Of a stretch of DNA of 64,000 nt, positions 10,933-16,633 are shown one piece after another. The position numbers and the translations under genes are program-made. The notes below the pieces were generated by a model that saw nothing but the letters and a program-made list of their open reading frames with translations, had not been told where the DNA came from and searched no databases. Source of the DNA: Rhodothermales bacterium (GTDB lineage Bacteria > Bacteroidota > Rhodothermia > Rhodothermales > Bin80); assembly GCA_958296045.1 (NCBI GenBank), contig CATQHT010000003.1, forward strand, positions 1,003,246-1,067,245, in the 5' to 3' direction. How positions within the stretch are numbered: position 1 is the first letter of the stretch; every line of letters starts with the position of its first letter.

Positions 10933-11091
10933 ATGTCATACAAGCGAGTGTCTATGCGGGCGATTAGGGACGTGCTTCGGCTGCATTTCCGGGAGGGGTA
11001 TAGCAATCGCAAGATTGCGAAGTGCCTGTCCGTTTCAGCCAGTACGGTGAGCGCGTATTTGGAGCGTGCAAAGCAAGCGGGTCTGTCCTAG
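10933..11091 (+). pseudogene. IS21-type istA remnant (N-terminal HTH only)
   Basis: An ATG at 10933 opens a 52-codon frame with the N-terminal helix-turn-helix of IstA transposases: AIRDVLRLHFREGYSNRKIA, then KCLSVSASTVSAYLERAKQ and AGLS. In IstA the next residue is normally Trp (GLSWP). Here it is TAG followed by a Pro codon, and the frame then degrades within about 60 bases. No catalytic domain follows before the next element. The istB at 16 kb is on the opposite strand and belongs to a different insertion. Confidence 0.75.
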
Positions 11092-11308
11092 CCTTGCCGT
11101 TTACCCATAACGGTGCGTCTCGCAATATTAGGGAGCGCAGGATTCACCGGGTAGTCTGATGGTAGATTTGTGGACGGTAGGGGATAACATATGGGAGGTT
11201 GTACCTCTAGGTCAGGTGGCATTTGGATTTCGCGAGGTCGATAGTCGGGGCACAGGCTACGGCCTCGAACGGGCCGCACCTTCCCCGTACTCCCACGTAT
11301 GTGTATGC

Positions 11309-12646
11309 TCAAACGGTACGCATGGTTGTCATGAGGTCATCCTCTAGCAAGCCCAAAGCGAATACACCTGTTGTTAATCGGTCCAGCCCACGCCATATGA
11401 TCTCGTTACCCGGTGGGCCATCCCGGCTGAGGTTCAGGTGACCCCCCAAATAGGCCACTAGGTGTACGGCTGCAACTAGCGTCTCTGGCGGTGGGCACCG
11501 AAACCTCTTTGCGTATCGCTCCAAGAAACGAAGCTCCGCATTGGTGAAGAACACATCCGCGGGCAAGTCTGGGGCCTCGCGCCCCAACAGCGTCAGGAGC
11601 ATGACGCGCCAAGCGATGACACAATAGATGGCAATTGCCCGCGACAGACGCTCGGCCTTCCGTAAGGCCAGCTTTTCCACCTTACATCCGTGCTTGAGGA
11701 CGCGGAAAAACTCCTCCACGCGCCAGCGGCGCACATAATAGCTCACCACCCTAAGGGCATCGTCCGCCGTCTCGACCTTTAGGCTGGTAAGTAAGTACCA
11801 TTTGATGGGTTCAGCATCATCCGGCGGATTCGGCTCGGTAACACTCACCACATTCATGGATAAGGGTGGCCGTCCCTTACGTTGAGACCGCATGGTGATG
11901 CGAGCAAAGCGAATCTCCAGATGGGCTGTCCGCTGGGCCCGACCCTTCGCCTTCTTGCGCTTGGACAGACGGCGCAGATCCAACGTGATCTCACAAGCGG
12001 GCGGTTCTTGCGCAAGCTGGTTAATCAGCCGCTCTCCTGACTCCAGTATTCGATTATGCTTCACCTGGACCAGCATCTCTACCCGACCGGACTGCCGCTG
12101 CGCATCAAACAACGCAAAGCAGTCCGCTTCCCGATCCATCACGCACACCACACACGTATCGGCGGGAAGGGTCTCGGCGGCCTCGCAAATATCCGCATAC
12201 CCGTCCAGCCACGGTTGCATCTTCGGCTTCAGCGGACCGGTATCGGGGTGTTTTATGCTGCAGCGCAGTACACCCAAAGGCAAACCGTATTCCGTTGTCG
12301 CCAAGGTCACATGCAAATGCAGACCGCGCGATTTCACACCCGTCTGATTGCTGCCGATCACCTGCAACCCTTCACAGGCCAACTTTGTATCGTAGTTGAG
12401 GCGGGATCCATCTTGGATACATAACACGACCTTCTGACTGCGCATCCGCTCCAGCGTCCGTGCCCGATGCGGCGACAAAATGTTCTCGGGAGTGACCGGT
12501 GAATCCGCCTTTTTGGATAAAAGCCGGTAACAGCCCCGAACATCGGCCAGCTCATAGTCGGTGTGCCGTGCAATGCCCTCACCCAGCACATCATTGAGCA
12601 TAGCGGCGGTCTTCTCCAAGCGTTCCGACAATCTGCGATCTCCCAA
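11309..12646 (-). pseudogene. IS4-family (Tn5-like) DDE transposase portion
   Basis: 445 codons from the ATG, but homologous sequence continues upstream of it. The N-terminal GDRRLSERLEKTAAML resembles the DNA-binding start of Tn5-type transposases. The DDE triad is visible as CIQDGSRL (first Asp), VMDREADCF (second Asp) and the YREK signature YYVRRWRVEEFFRVLK, which fits Y-x2-R-x3-E-x6-K. The catalytic part therefore looks intact. Because the natural N-terminus lies in the disrupted DruA-linked frame, I treat the gene as damaged, though a shortened protein could still be made from the ATG at 12646. Confidence 0.8.
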
Positions 12647-12815
12647 GGGTGCTCCGCCAAATTCCCCCGATACCCACTCCGCGAGTCCCTCTTCCGGCTG
12701 CCGTATGCGCCTGCAGCTCTTTCCTCCAGCCAGGGTCTAACTCATACACAAAGACCGCCTTCGGTGTTCGCGGCTCATCTTCGGGGTGGCGTTTTTTGCT
12801 GGAGGTCTGCCCAAT

Positions 12816-13559
12816 CTATCTGAAATTGGCGGCCTTAAAGCAGCTGCCGGTTCGCTCAGCGTCCACAAACGTCTCAATGATCCAGGGCCGATAGCCGTAA
12901 CACGCTTCAAAGTCCGCCTCCACACGCCGCAACACATGACCCAGGACATGACTGGCTAGATTCCGACACGGACCACGAATCAACAAGCGACTCAGGCAGA
13001 GCACCCGATGCAGATGCCGTTTACGCTCGACATCACTCCAGCCCATCCAGGTGTCCCGACTGGCTAAACGCAGACACGAAGCCGAAAAGCCAAGGGCACC
13101 CAAATAGCCGTGCTCACTGTGGATGAGGTATTTGCGCTGGGCCCCAATAAACCGACTCACACCGCGTGGGTGGTCTTCAGCCAGCAGCGTGTTCCACAGC
13201 ACAAGCTGCTCACTTTCGGTAACTAGACTGATGGATAGTCCATCAATGTCTTGCACCTGGTCCGGTAGCCCTGAAGACTGTGGTACCGGCTCAGGCAGTG
13301 TGCGTACATGCCCACTGCGCGGCGGTAGGGGCCGTGCCTCTGGCAACGCCACCAGCCCGCGATCGGCCAACATCGACAGCGCCCGGCTACAATTAGCCTC
13401 CTGCAAGCGACCACATGCGTCCCGAACATTGAAGGCCTCACAGGTGGCACGCGCCAACGCAGCCCGACTTTCCACGGGTTGGTCTGTGGTAAGGTGCCGC
13501 AAACGCGGCAGCGACGAAGGCCGGCTCAAGGTCCAGAGAATCTGATTCTGTATGTACAT
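12816..13559 (-). pseudogene. DruA-like (DUF4338) domain protein, truncated by TAG
   Basis: 247 codons ending in TAG. An N-terminal winged-helix-like segment (ARATCEAFNVRDACGRLQEA) is followed by the DUF4338 core: GAQRKYLIHSEHGYLGALGF, DTWMGWSDVERKRHLHRVLC, LASHVLGHVLRRVEADFEA and YRPWIIETFVDAERTGSCF. This is the domain of DruA from the Druantia anti-phage system. It also occurs in transposon settings. Here it directly precedes an IS4 transposase on the same strand, which argues for a mobile-element role rather than a Druantia locus: no DruE helicase or other Druantia gene is nearby. The stop replaces a residue inside the conserved NFR-IGQTS stretch. Confidence 0.8.
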
Positions 13560-13763
13560 GCCGCTAATCTGAGCGACACTCTTGCCAATTGCAAGTCTAT
13601 TCGGTGTGGTAAAACGGCAGAGTTAGCCTGGCGCACCCCTTATCGCTTTTTGTACTATCTTACGTTTCCGCTTACAAATGCAGTTGGTCTGCCTGCAGGA
13701 GCTGCACTTTCTATGTCCATTGGCGTATGGTTGTCGGCTCCTTGGCCAGCTCTAACCTGAACG

Positions 13764-15596
13764 GTGATTGCCATGACTGACAAGCTTACCTTGGTCGTAT
13801 CGCAACTTTGGCGCAGGCATGGTTGGTGCCTGATTCTAGCTGGGTTGGCCTGCACACTGTCCGTGCAGACTGCCACGGCACAGCCGGTATCAACCGCGTT
13901 CGACATACTGAAGGCCTTGTACGAGTCTACTGACGGCGACAATTGGACGGACAACACGGGTTGGGATATAACCAGGGTACCAACTGCTGCAGAATTGGAT
14001 ACATGGTATGGAATCGACTACGACGGAGGGACCGAGGCTCTGCGAGGGGTTCTTTTACGTAATAATAACCTTGTAGGTCCGATTCCCAGCGAGTTGGGCA
14101 GCCTTTCCAAACTGGAACTCCTTGACTTATCACGGAATGCTATATCGGGTACGGTGCCCGCCAGCCTGGGCAACCTTTCCAAACTGAGAGGTCTTAACCT
14201 GGGGGGCAATAATCTTTCGGGCACGATTCCCAGCGAGTTGGGAAACCTTGCCAATCTGGAAAGGCTTACCTTACTAGACAATGCTATATCGGGTACGGTG
14301 CCCGCCAAGCTGGGCAATCTATCGAGTCTGATAGTTCTTAGCCTGGGGAGCAATAATCTTTCGGGCAAGATTCCCAGCGAGTTGGGAGACCTCCTGAACC
14401 TCGAGTGGCTCAGCGCAAGCTGGAATGATCTTTCGGGCACGATTCCCAGCGAGTTGGGAAACCTTTCCAAACTCAGAACTCTTGTCCTGGGGAGCAATGA
14501 TCTTTCGGGCACGATTCCCAGCGAGTTGGGAAACCTCCTGAACCTCGAGGATTTCAGCGCAGACTACAATGAGCTTTCGGGCCCGCTTCCCAGCGAGTTG
14601 GGAAACCTTTCCAAACTGGAGTACCTGTACCTTCACAGCAATCAACTCTCGGGTCCATTCCCCGACTGGGTCGGAGCACTTACGTCTCTTCAGGGTCTTC
14701 TCTTGGATGGGAACAATTTCTCAGGTGGAATCCCCAGCAGACTGGGTGATCTGGTGGGTTTGACAAGCCTTCGGCTGAACAAGAATCCCATATCAGGTAC
14801 AGTCCCCGGTGAGCTCGGGAATGCTTCGGCGCTGGAAGTCCTCCGCCTGGACTCCACTTCTCTAAGTGGATCACTGCCGACCACCCTCACGCAGCTAAGC
14901 AACTTATCAACATTCTACTTTGATGGAGCCCACGGCCTTTGTGCACCGGCGGACAGTGCCTTCCAGACGTGGCTGAACAGCATCCCGGATACAAACGGGT
15001 CCACCTGCGCACCTTTGGATCTTACAGGTACCATTGCAAATCAAACCCTTCCCAGAGCACAGCCCATTGCTCCGCTGGTCTTGCCTGAAGCCTCGGGAGG
15101 TGTGCCGCCGATCAATTATACGCTGGCTCCTACACTGCCGACAGGCTTGAGCTTTGACTCGGCAACGCGCACGATCAGTGGTACGCCGACGGAAGTCACG
15201 CAAGCTCCCTTGCCCTATACGTACACGGCGACCGACATGAACGGATCCGCCGACAGTTTGCACTTTACTATTGAGGTGTTTTCACCAGTGGACGCTGAGT
15301 ACGAGACGCTGCCGGAATCGTTTGCCGTGCAAGGCCATTATCCGAATCCCTTCCGTGAATTGACCCGCATCGTGTTCGATCTGCCTTGGCCAGCACGCGT
15401 GACCGTTGAAGTAATGGACGTAACGGGCCGGCGTGTGCTTGCTGTTGCGCCGGTGGATCTGGCCGCTGGATGGGCGCATAACATTGCAGTAAACGGCATT
15501 ACTCTTCCTTCGGGCCTCTACCTGTATCGCCTGATGGCCGTGTCGCCCGAGAGCCACGCAACGTATCTGATGGGCCGCTTCGTGCACGTTCGCTAA
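13764..15596 (+). CDS. secreted leucine-rich-repeat protein with T9SS C-terminal domain
   Basis: 610 aa from GTG at 13764; an ATG at 13773 is an equally good start. A signal peptide ends near VQTATAQ. An LRR cap (FDILKALYESTDGDNWTD) leads into about 14 plant-type repeats of 24 residues (NNLSGTIPSELGNLSKL). Then come a putative-Ig (He_PIG-like) domain (TLPTGLSFDSATRTISGTP) and a T9SS type A sorting domain (ESFAVQGHYPNPFRELTRI ... VMDVTGRRV ... GLYLYRL). The protein should be exported through the outer membrane by T9SS and anchored or released. Several LRR units are nearly identical at DNA level (72-base period). The ligand is unknown. Confidence 0.92.
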   Translation: MIAMTDKLTLVVSQLWRRHGWCLILAGLACTLSVQTATAQPVSTAFDILKALYESTDGDNWTDNTGWDITRVPTAAELDTWYGIDYDGGTEALRGVLLRNNNLVGPIPSELGSLSKLELLDLSRNAISGTVPASLGNLSKLRGLNLGGNNLSGTIPSELGNLANLERLTLLDNAISGTVPAKLGNLSSLIVLSLGSNNLSGKIPSELGDLLNLEWLSASWNDLSGTIPSELGNLSKLRTLVLGSNDLSGTIPSELGNLLNLEDFSADYNELSGPLPSELGNLSKLEYLYLHSNQLSGPFPDWVGALTSLQGLLLDGNNFSGGIPSRLGDLVGLTSLRLNKNPISGTVPGELGNASALEVLRLDSTSLSGSLPTTLTQLSNLSTFYFDGAHGLCAPADSAFQTWLNSIPDTNGSTCAPLDLTGTIANQTLPRAQPIAPLVLPEASGGVPPINYTLAPTLPTGLSFDSATRTISGTPTEVTQAPLPYTYTATDMNGSADSLHFTIEVFSPVDAEYETLPESFAVQGHYPNPFRELTRIVFDLPWPARVTVEVMDVTGRRVLAVAPVDLAAGWAHNIAVNGITLPSGLYLYRLMAVSPESHATYLMGRFVHVR

Positions 15597-15985: not shown

Positions 15986-16633
15986 TCATGCCTGGTCGTA
16001 GGGTTTGATGCTCCGCAGGGCGTGTGTTTTGCGCATGGATTCACCCTTAAGTGAGATGTGGTGTGCATTGTGAACCAGTCGGTCAAGGATGGCATCGGCC
16101 AAGGTAGGATCTTCCATGGTGTCGTGCCATTGTTCCACGGGGACTTGGCTGGTCGCGATGGTGGACCGGCTCTGGTATCGGTCGTCGAACAGCTCCAAGA
16201 GGTAGCGTTGTTGCGTGACGTTCACTTCGCTGGTACCCCAGTCGTCGGTGATCAATACATCGATCTTTGACATTTTACGCAGGAGTTTCCGATCGGTGTC
16301 ATCGGCGCGCCCGAGGTGCATATCCTGCAAGAGTCGCGAAAGTCGGTCGTATTGTGCCCGGTAGTTTTCCAGGCATGCCTTATGAGCCAGCACACAGGGT
16401 AAGTAGGTCATGCCCATGCCTGTCGCGCCGGTAATGATGACATTTTCATGCCGCTGAATCCACTGACAGCTAGCCAGATGCAACATGAGTCGTTTGCTGA
16501 GGCCACGCCCCTTTCCGTAGTCGACGTCGGCCATACTTGCTTGACACTCTAGCTTAGCGCGCCCGAGTCTCAGATTCCTAGAGGTTCGCTTCCTTCGAGC
16601 CTTCCGATAGGCCAAATGGCTGTACCAGGGCAC
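15986..16633 (-). pseudogene. istB: IS21-type istB ATPase, N-terminally truncated, Walker A mutated
   Basis: 215 codons resembling IstB helper ATPases. It opens inside the usual N-terminal region (LECQASMADVDYGKGRGLSK), then SCQWIQRHENVIITG. The P-loop reads GATGMGMTYL where family members have GxTGxGKT/S, so the invariant Lys is Met. Walker B (VLITDDWG) and the C-terminal ILDRLVHNAHHISLKGESMR are retained. The first 30-40 residues are missing and no istA lies upstream on this strand. It is very probably inactive. The next 1.2 kb upstream holds nothing recognisable. Confidence 0.8.

Follow-up and report, generated by a model that had tools for sequence, protein, structure and literature searches.

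A domain of the DruA family (DUF4338) and an IS4/Tn5-type transposase that lie next to each other in a Rhodothermales genome are the remains of one broken gene. A preliminary description had proposed this, and it is confirmed by alignment to an intact sister copy (L022) and by uninterrupted 752-aa sisters in the same genome. Unbroken, this single gene is predicted to supply a DNA-binding, Mom-like GNAT domain ahead of a complete Tn5-type transposase. The reading preferred here is that the Mom-like DruA part acts on DNA in cis with the transposase, and as a whole it is given a probability of roughly 0.55. Its parts differ in strength: that DruA is an integral accessory of transposition is highly probable, and that the IS4-fused branch retains DNA-modifying activity is doubtful. 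Most likely, the DruA half assists transposition as an accessory domain that works on DNA, perhaps through acylation of adenine. There are good grounds for the earlier suggestion that the domain serves as a transposon module, namely intact fusions with defined ends in many copies and its recurrence with other DDE families. No earlier description linking DUF4338/DruA with transposases was found in the openly licensed papers searched.

A broken fusion and its intact sister copies

In the window, i.e. the whole stretch of 64,000 nucleotides analysed, the element is a decayed insertion sequence of subfamily A located on the minus strand at 11094-13620 (2527 bp), as delimited by alignment to L022 and by the ends of sister copies. 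The bounds first given to the feature, 11309-13559, missed these ends, 11309 being the end of the gene. The intact sister L022 measures 2546 bp and is 95.6% identical to the window copy over 2526 aligned bases. At the 5' end of the gene, the terminal inverted repeat CTGCCGTTTTACC was located by its motif (13608-13620, minus strand); this end is common to L021a, L022 and the window copy, and occurs in variant forms in L023-L025. The repeat at the 3' end of the gene, recognized by comparison with sister copies, reads TTGCCGTTTACCC (11094-11106, plus strand), its terminal base being altered relative to the CTGCCG of the sisters. The flanks TCCTAGCC (11086-11093, plus strand) and AGTTAGCC (13621-13628) match at only 5/8 positions, so the target duplication of this copy is not intact.

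The DruA-domain ORF (247 aa, 12816-13559, minus strand) matches Pfam DruA (PF14236) at E 3.9e-23 with 82.5 bits, against a curated cut-off of 27, over profile positions 46-204 of 297. Its frame is closed by a TAG stop (12816-12818, minus strand) within the motif FKAANFR-Y-IG, through which the sisters read, and translation beyond this stop yields the continuation of the sister protein. The two frames do meet, as had been noticed, at ~12703/12704 (minus strand) and not at 12715; alignment to L022 places there a 20-bp deletion relative to the sister copies. The IS4/Tn5-type DDE transposase ORF (445 aa, 11309-12646, minus strand) matches DDE_Tnp_1 (E 5.9e-9) and Dimer_Tnp_Tn5 (E 2e-7), and the homologous frame starts upstream of the annotated ORF start, near 12703. 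Near the transposase C-terminus, a 1-bp insertion relative to L022 is found at 11334 (minus strand). Together, the TAG stop, the frame-shifting deletion and this insertion identify the window copy as a defunct version of a single fused gene.

The 4.78-Mb host genome contains 41 DruA matches, 26 of them within uninterrupted frames of 683-814 aa in which DruA is followed by a complete Tn5/IS4 transposase. A tblastn search with the two window ORFs separates three subfamilies, A, B and C, respectively ~95%, ~50% and ~44% identical to the window copy. Three members of subfamily A (L021, L022, L023) are unbroken 752-aa fusions sharing 94-95% protein identity with the window copy; these uninterrupted sisters and the 26/41 matches in frames of at least 683 aa show that the fusion is not due to chance. 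DruA fragments that lack a transposase are, for the most part, decayed remnants. It is neither the case that both parts are always separate genes with unrelated element ends, nor that most DruA parts occur without the transposase. Both halves of the fused gene are under purifying selection, with a dN/dS of 0.35 in each between L013 and L011.

Intact fusions are also present in two other Rhodothermales MAGs (L057, L061), in a gammaproteobacterial MAG (L059) and in the isolate Stutzerimonas stutzeri CLN100 (L065). Sampling covered the phylum of the host and the proteobacterial relatives of L059 and L065; DruA was rare throughout, being found in 9/395 genomes from the host's phylum, 17/398 from the phylum of L065's genome and 17/369 from the class of L059's genome. 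The DruA domains of the fusions group in one clade (100/99), as do their transposases (100/100), so a single ancient fusion is the simplest reading. In the transposase tree, IS4 elements with DruA as a second gene form a separate lineage, beside transposases taken without DruA, which implies that the DruA-IS4 association arose at least twice.

Some further features of these copies and of their surroundings were observed. Most subfamily B elements (L034, L028-L033, L036, L037) carry ~590 bp of extra DNA between the gene and the right end; this stretch is missing from L031, and a similar one lies inside L024. In subfamily C, the left ends of L013, L014 and L015 show a 237-bp direct duplication. 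In the window, an N-terminal fragment resembling IS21 IstA by eye (10939-11093) is cut precisely at the element end, and the minus strand carries, at 15986-16633, an IstB-like ORF whose ATPase motif is degenerate. The window flank 13639-13960, upstream of a gene for a leucine-rich-repeat (LRR) surface protein, is 91% identical to L029 7498-7819, which is inverted relative to it and located ~2 kb from a subfamily B DruA-IS4 element. The LRR-gene neighbourhoods seem to have been duplicated and rearranged around DruA-IS4 elements.

Element ends, target sites and the transposase half

Comparison of multiple copies defined the element ends for the three subfamilies. Those of subfamily A are CTGCCGTTTTACC and GGTAAACGGCAG, those of B are perfect 38-bp repeats, and those of C are shorter and imperfect, with only CTCCCCC/CTACCCG. 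Exact 8-bp target duplications surround 14 host copies (A, B and C) and L057 of another Rhodothermales MAG, i.e. 15 in all, as exemplified by ACCTAGCC, GACTAGGT, CCCTAGCC and AGCTAGTT. The central four bases are CTAG in 10/15 of them (binomial P about 4e-26), a word depleted in the window, where it occupies 0.0013 of positions. These CTAG-like targets are common to all three host subfamilies. The near-identical dispersed copies with target duplications suggest that DruA-IS4 elements can transpose, and some copies are at least 99% identical, which points to recent movement. Many non-autonomous copies with the same ends were sought and not seen, nearly all terminal motifs belonging to DruA elements; one A-type left end without a gene is located at C3:1301104.

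The transposase half is complete. Residues 302-666 of P0001 align with residues 13-371 of Tn5, end-binding domain included (E 7e-37), and the transposase of an intact sister displays a Tnp_DNA_bind domain and matches NF033590 at E 3e-85. Similar values were obtained for P0002 (Tnp_DNA_bind 1.7e-9, Dimer_Tnp_Tn5 1.5e-9, NF033590 E about 1e-85), and Tnp_DNA_bind stands slightly below its curated cut-off in P0001 and P0003. The Y-(2)-R-(3)-E-(6)-K signature is present (YVRRWRVEEFFRVLK, aligned to YTHRWRIEEFHKAWK of Tn5), and the DDE residues D393, D485 and E625 are invariant across subfamilies. Foldseek comparison of the modelled L057 fusion retrieves Tn5 transposase at E 7e-25. Since a complete Tn5 transposase lies downstream, DruA was added in front and replaces nothing.

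The host elements thus share with Tn5/IS50 (IS4 family; PDB 1mm8, 1muh, 4dm0) the end-binding domain, the DDE core with YREK and the dimerisation domain, as well as CTG-starting ends and a target duplication of 8-9 bp; they differ by the extra domain of ~300 aa ahead of the complete transposase. From this homology and from the target duplications, the Tn5 part would cut the CTG-starting ends and insert the element with 8-bp duplications at CTAG-like sites. DruA as sole determinant of the CTAG targeting was considered and rejected. Indeed, elements in which DruA is joined to an ISAs1 transposase do not share this target, their 10-bp target sites (CCTCGCAGGC, GATACCCTGG, CTTTCACCGG) being devoid of CTAG, and the target of a two-gene DruA-IS4 element, CTTCCGTAG, also speaks against it.

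A Mom-like domain in the DruA half

Mom is a DNA-modifying enzyme of phage Mu that carbamoylmethylates adenine and shields the phage DNA from restriction. The DruA profile is related to the Mom profile with a probability of 90.5% (E 1.4e-6). All 14 transposon-branch members compared match a Mom-like PHROG (best E 3.3e-7), and 8/14 match Pfam Mom (best E 7e-5). In a structural comparison with a low-confidence model of a homologue (mean pLDDT 57), the leading rows are all GNATs (Z 5.2-6.3), Mu Mom 8bv8 being among the matches with Z 5.3, and residues 1-86 of the model match a DNA-binding factor, 5duk. Accordingly placed in the window, the helical N-terminal part of the DruA ORF, probably a winged helix, spans ~13335-13559 (minus strand), with the Mom-like GNAT core below it. 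The transposon-branch domain is therefore probably a winged-helix and GNAT module related to phage Mu Mom.

The best structural rows of this low-confidence model are RimL-type protein acetyltransferases, and GNATs commonly act on proteins. Both facts would suit a GNAT half that regulates transposition by acylating either the transposase or a host factor. Such an activity is nevertheless judged very unlikely, because the sequence kinship is specifically with Mom, whose substrate is DNA, and because a DNA-binding helical domain precedes the GNAT half.

The residues of the Mom-like motifs are unevenly conserved. In the inactive Mom mutant S124A, the altered serine is the last one of PRNSES (PRNSE-S to A). 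The serine aligned to it, in N-L-A-S, occurs in 33/33 transposon-branch sequences and in 0/6 long-form DruA. The His and Arg of other Mom-like motifs are also invariant, including in 12/12 IS4-fused sequences. In the IS4-fused branch, HP replaces the Mom-like HY in 12/12 sequences, the Asp of FAD/FVD varies and a later Tyr is usually Phe, while the Glu stays; the HY, Asp and Tyr residues are mostly retained in DruA genes that are not fused to IS4.

For the action on DNA preferred here, we infer that the domain handles DNA, its helical N-terminal part binding it and its GNAT pocket acylating it as Mom does, the most plausible substrate being adenine close to the element ends or the target. Owing to the replaced Tyr and Asp of the Mom-like motifs, this chemistry may be altered or lost in the IS4-fused branch, leaving a DNA-handling role. 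The HP for HY, the variable Asp, the Phe for Tyr and the low confidence of the modelled GNAT core (mean pLDDT 57) all argue against the DNA-modifying reading, and the openly licensed work found reports no activity of a DruA-domain protein. These changed Tyr, Asp and Tyr residues, beside which His, Arg, Ser and Glu stay, would also fit a module that has lost catalysis and serves in DNA binding or architecture, helping the transposase to grip ends or targets. The helical N-terminal match to 5duk, the fusion of DruA directly ahead of the end-binding Tnp_DNA_bind domain and the CTAG-like targets of all three host subfamilies are consistent with such a module. However, the Ser whose loss inactivates Mom is invariant together with His and Arg in 12/12 fused sequences, which is more than a scaffold needs, and the non-CTAG 10-bp targets of DruA-ISAs1 elements indicate that the CTAG preference is not due to DruA alone. 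A dead module is the leading alternative for the IS4-fused branch and is considered somewhat unlikely.

Compared with phage Mu Mom (PF25680, PHROG 1384, PDB 8bv8), the transposon-branch domain shows detectable homology over the GNAT core and has in common the His, the Arg, Asn-x-x-Ser and G-x-x-Y-x-A-x-N. Mom is devoid of the winged-helix part and of a transposase, and IS4-fused DruA differs from it in Tyr and Asp motif residues. The Druantia DruA (PF14236 long form, ~400 aa) is covered by the same Pfam model, whereas it forms a separate clade on long branches and lacks the HYLG, RFLI, NLAS and ETFVD motifs of the transposon branch. The link to Druantia first drawn for this locus thus holds for the Pfam family only: the domain belongs to a Mom-like branch, with motifs absent from the Druantia type and long branches in between. 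The "DruA" label is thus right for the Pfam family and misleads as to function. The probability that this locus was left behind by a Druantia defence system is negligible. Beyond the Pfam name of the domain, no Druantia-type DruA motif is seen, PADLOC gives no DruA match beyond E 0.027, and the element ends enclose only DruA and the transposase, with no DruB-E homologues between them. Membership in a Druantia system was rejected on the short form, the different motifs and the transposase as the sole other content of the element.

A defence context is known for other members of the family. In the passages on DndF of Kaur et al. (2024, PMC10853773), DUF4338 is identified as a GNAT domain fused to DndF. 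This agrees with the tentative GNAT assignment made here, whereas the context described in those passages is that of a defence protein, with no link drawn there to Mom or DDE transposases. Three very large frames of 1077-1297 aa with a DruA domain (L099, L106, L133) are perhaps DndF fusions of the type treated in those passages (PMC10853773). Long-form DruA genes were also observed outside classical Druantia (L089, L091, L120); L089 and L091 are adjoined by NurA-like ORFs, recognized by eye, and L091 also by a TniQ-domain ORF (Pfam E 6e-30).

Short DruA genes with other transposase families

Besides the IS4 fusions, short DruA is fused to ISAs1 transposases (L074, L082, L147 and others). As a separate gene, it accompanies IS4/Tn5 (L093, L125), IS66 (L130, L156, L157) and, by adjacency alone, ISKra4 (L092) and IS1634 (L105) transposases; it is also found with less well classed DDE transposases (L045, L154). 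In our own tally over the two proteobacterial samples, a fused or adjacent transposase gene is present for 24 of the 26 reasonably complete short DruA genes, that of L127 being a weak remnant only; the remaining two (L101, L141) are either decayed or located where a contig ends. Inverted repeats enclose DruA and the transposase in several cases, together with a 9-bp duplication in L150 and with 10-bp duplications in L162 and in two identical Thiodictyon copies of 2057 bp. Perfect repeats with no readable duplication were found in L149, L154, L156, L157 and L173, and two of these contigs break off right at the repeat, as is often the case for multi-copy elements. On plasmids, short DruA was seen only on those of Candidatus Thiodictyon, and plain IS4 transposases without DruA are common. 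A viral origin was rejected, no close relative being found in viral contigs (query A1) or phage records.

Since short DruA recurs with several transposase families that are unrelated to one another, it looks like a general transposon tool and not like a piece of a defence system. It recalls the accessory genes of insertion sequences, e.g. tnpA/tnpB of IS66, in being an extra element-borne gene beside a DDE transposase; it differs from them in being unrelated, in spanning several transposase families and in being fused in two. DruA could also be mere cargo, for instance for anti-restriction or defence, riding transposons with no part in transposition. Mom guards phage DNA against restriction, long DruA proteins belong to Druantia, and DruA is a separate gene in most cases other than IS4 and ISAs1. 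Such a passenger is nonetheless quite improbable, given the fusion to the transposase N-terminus in two families, the equal constraint on both halves and the presence of this same domain as the only extra gene across several families.

A broader version of the preferred action on DNA is conceivable and, taken as a whole, unlikely. A Mom-like DNA-modifying enzyme would be a general accessory of DDE transposons, taken up by at least five transposase families, with which elements would control transposition by placing a base modification on their own ends or target sites, and the Druantia DruA would be a diverged, repurposed relative. To our knowledge, the cases of base modification described so far for transposition are the Dam methylation by which the host acts on IS10/IS50, and phage Mu; a DNA-modifying DruA domain would mean that bacterial transposons bring such a step with them. 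The larger, Mom-like branch of this family, which owes its name to a defence system, belongs to mobile elements, and annotating these genes as "Druantia DruA" therefore misleads defence surveys.

The DruA-ISAs1 copies of Candidatus Thiodictyon (L074 3941-5702 and L119 4001-5762) are identical, and their transposase lies in two frames, split at a C-rich run, which reflects either a shared mutation or programmed frameshifting.
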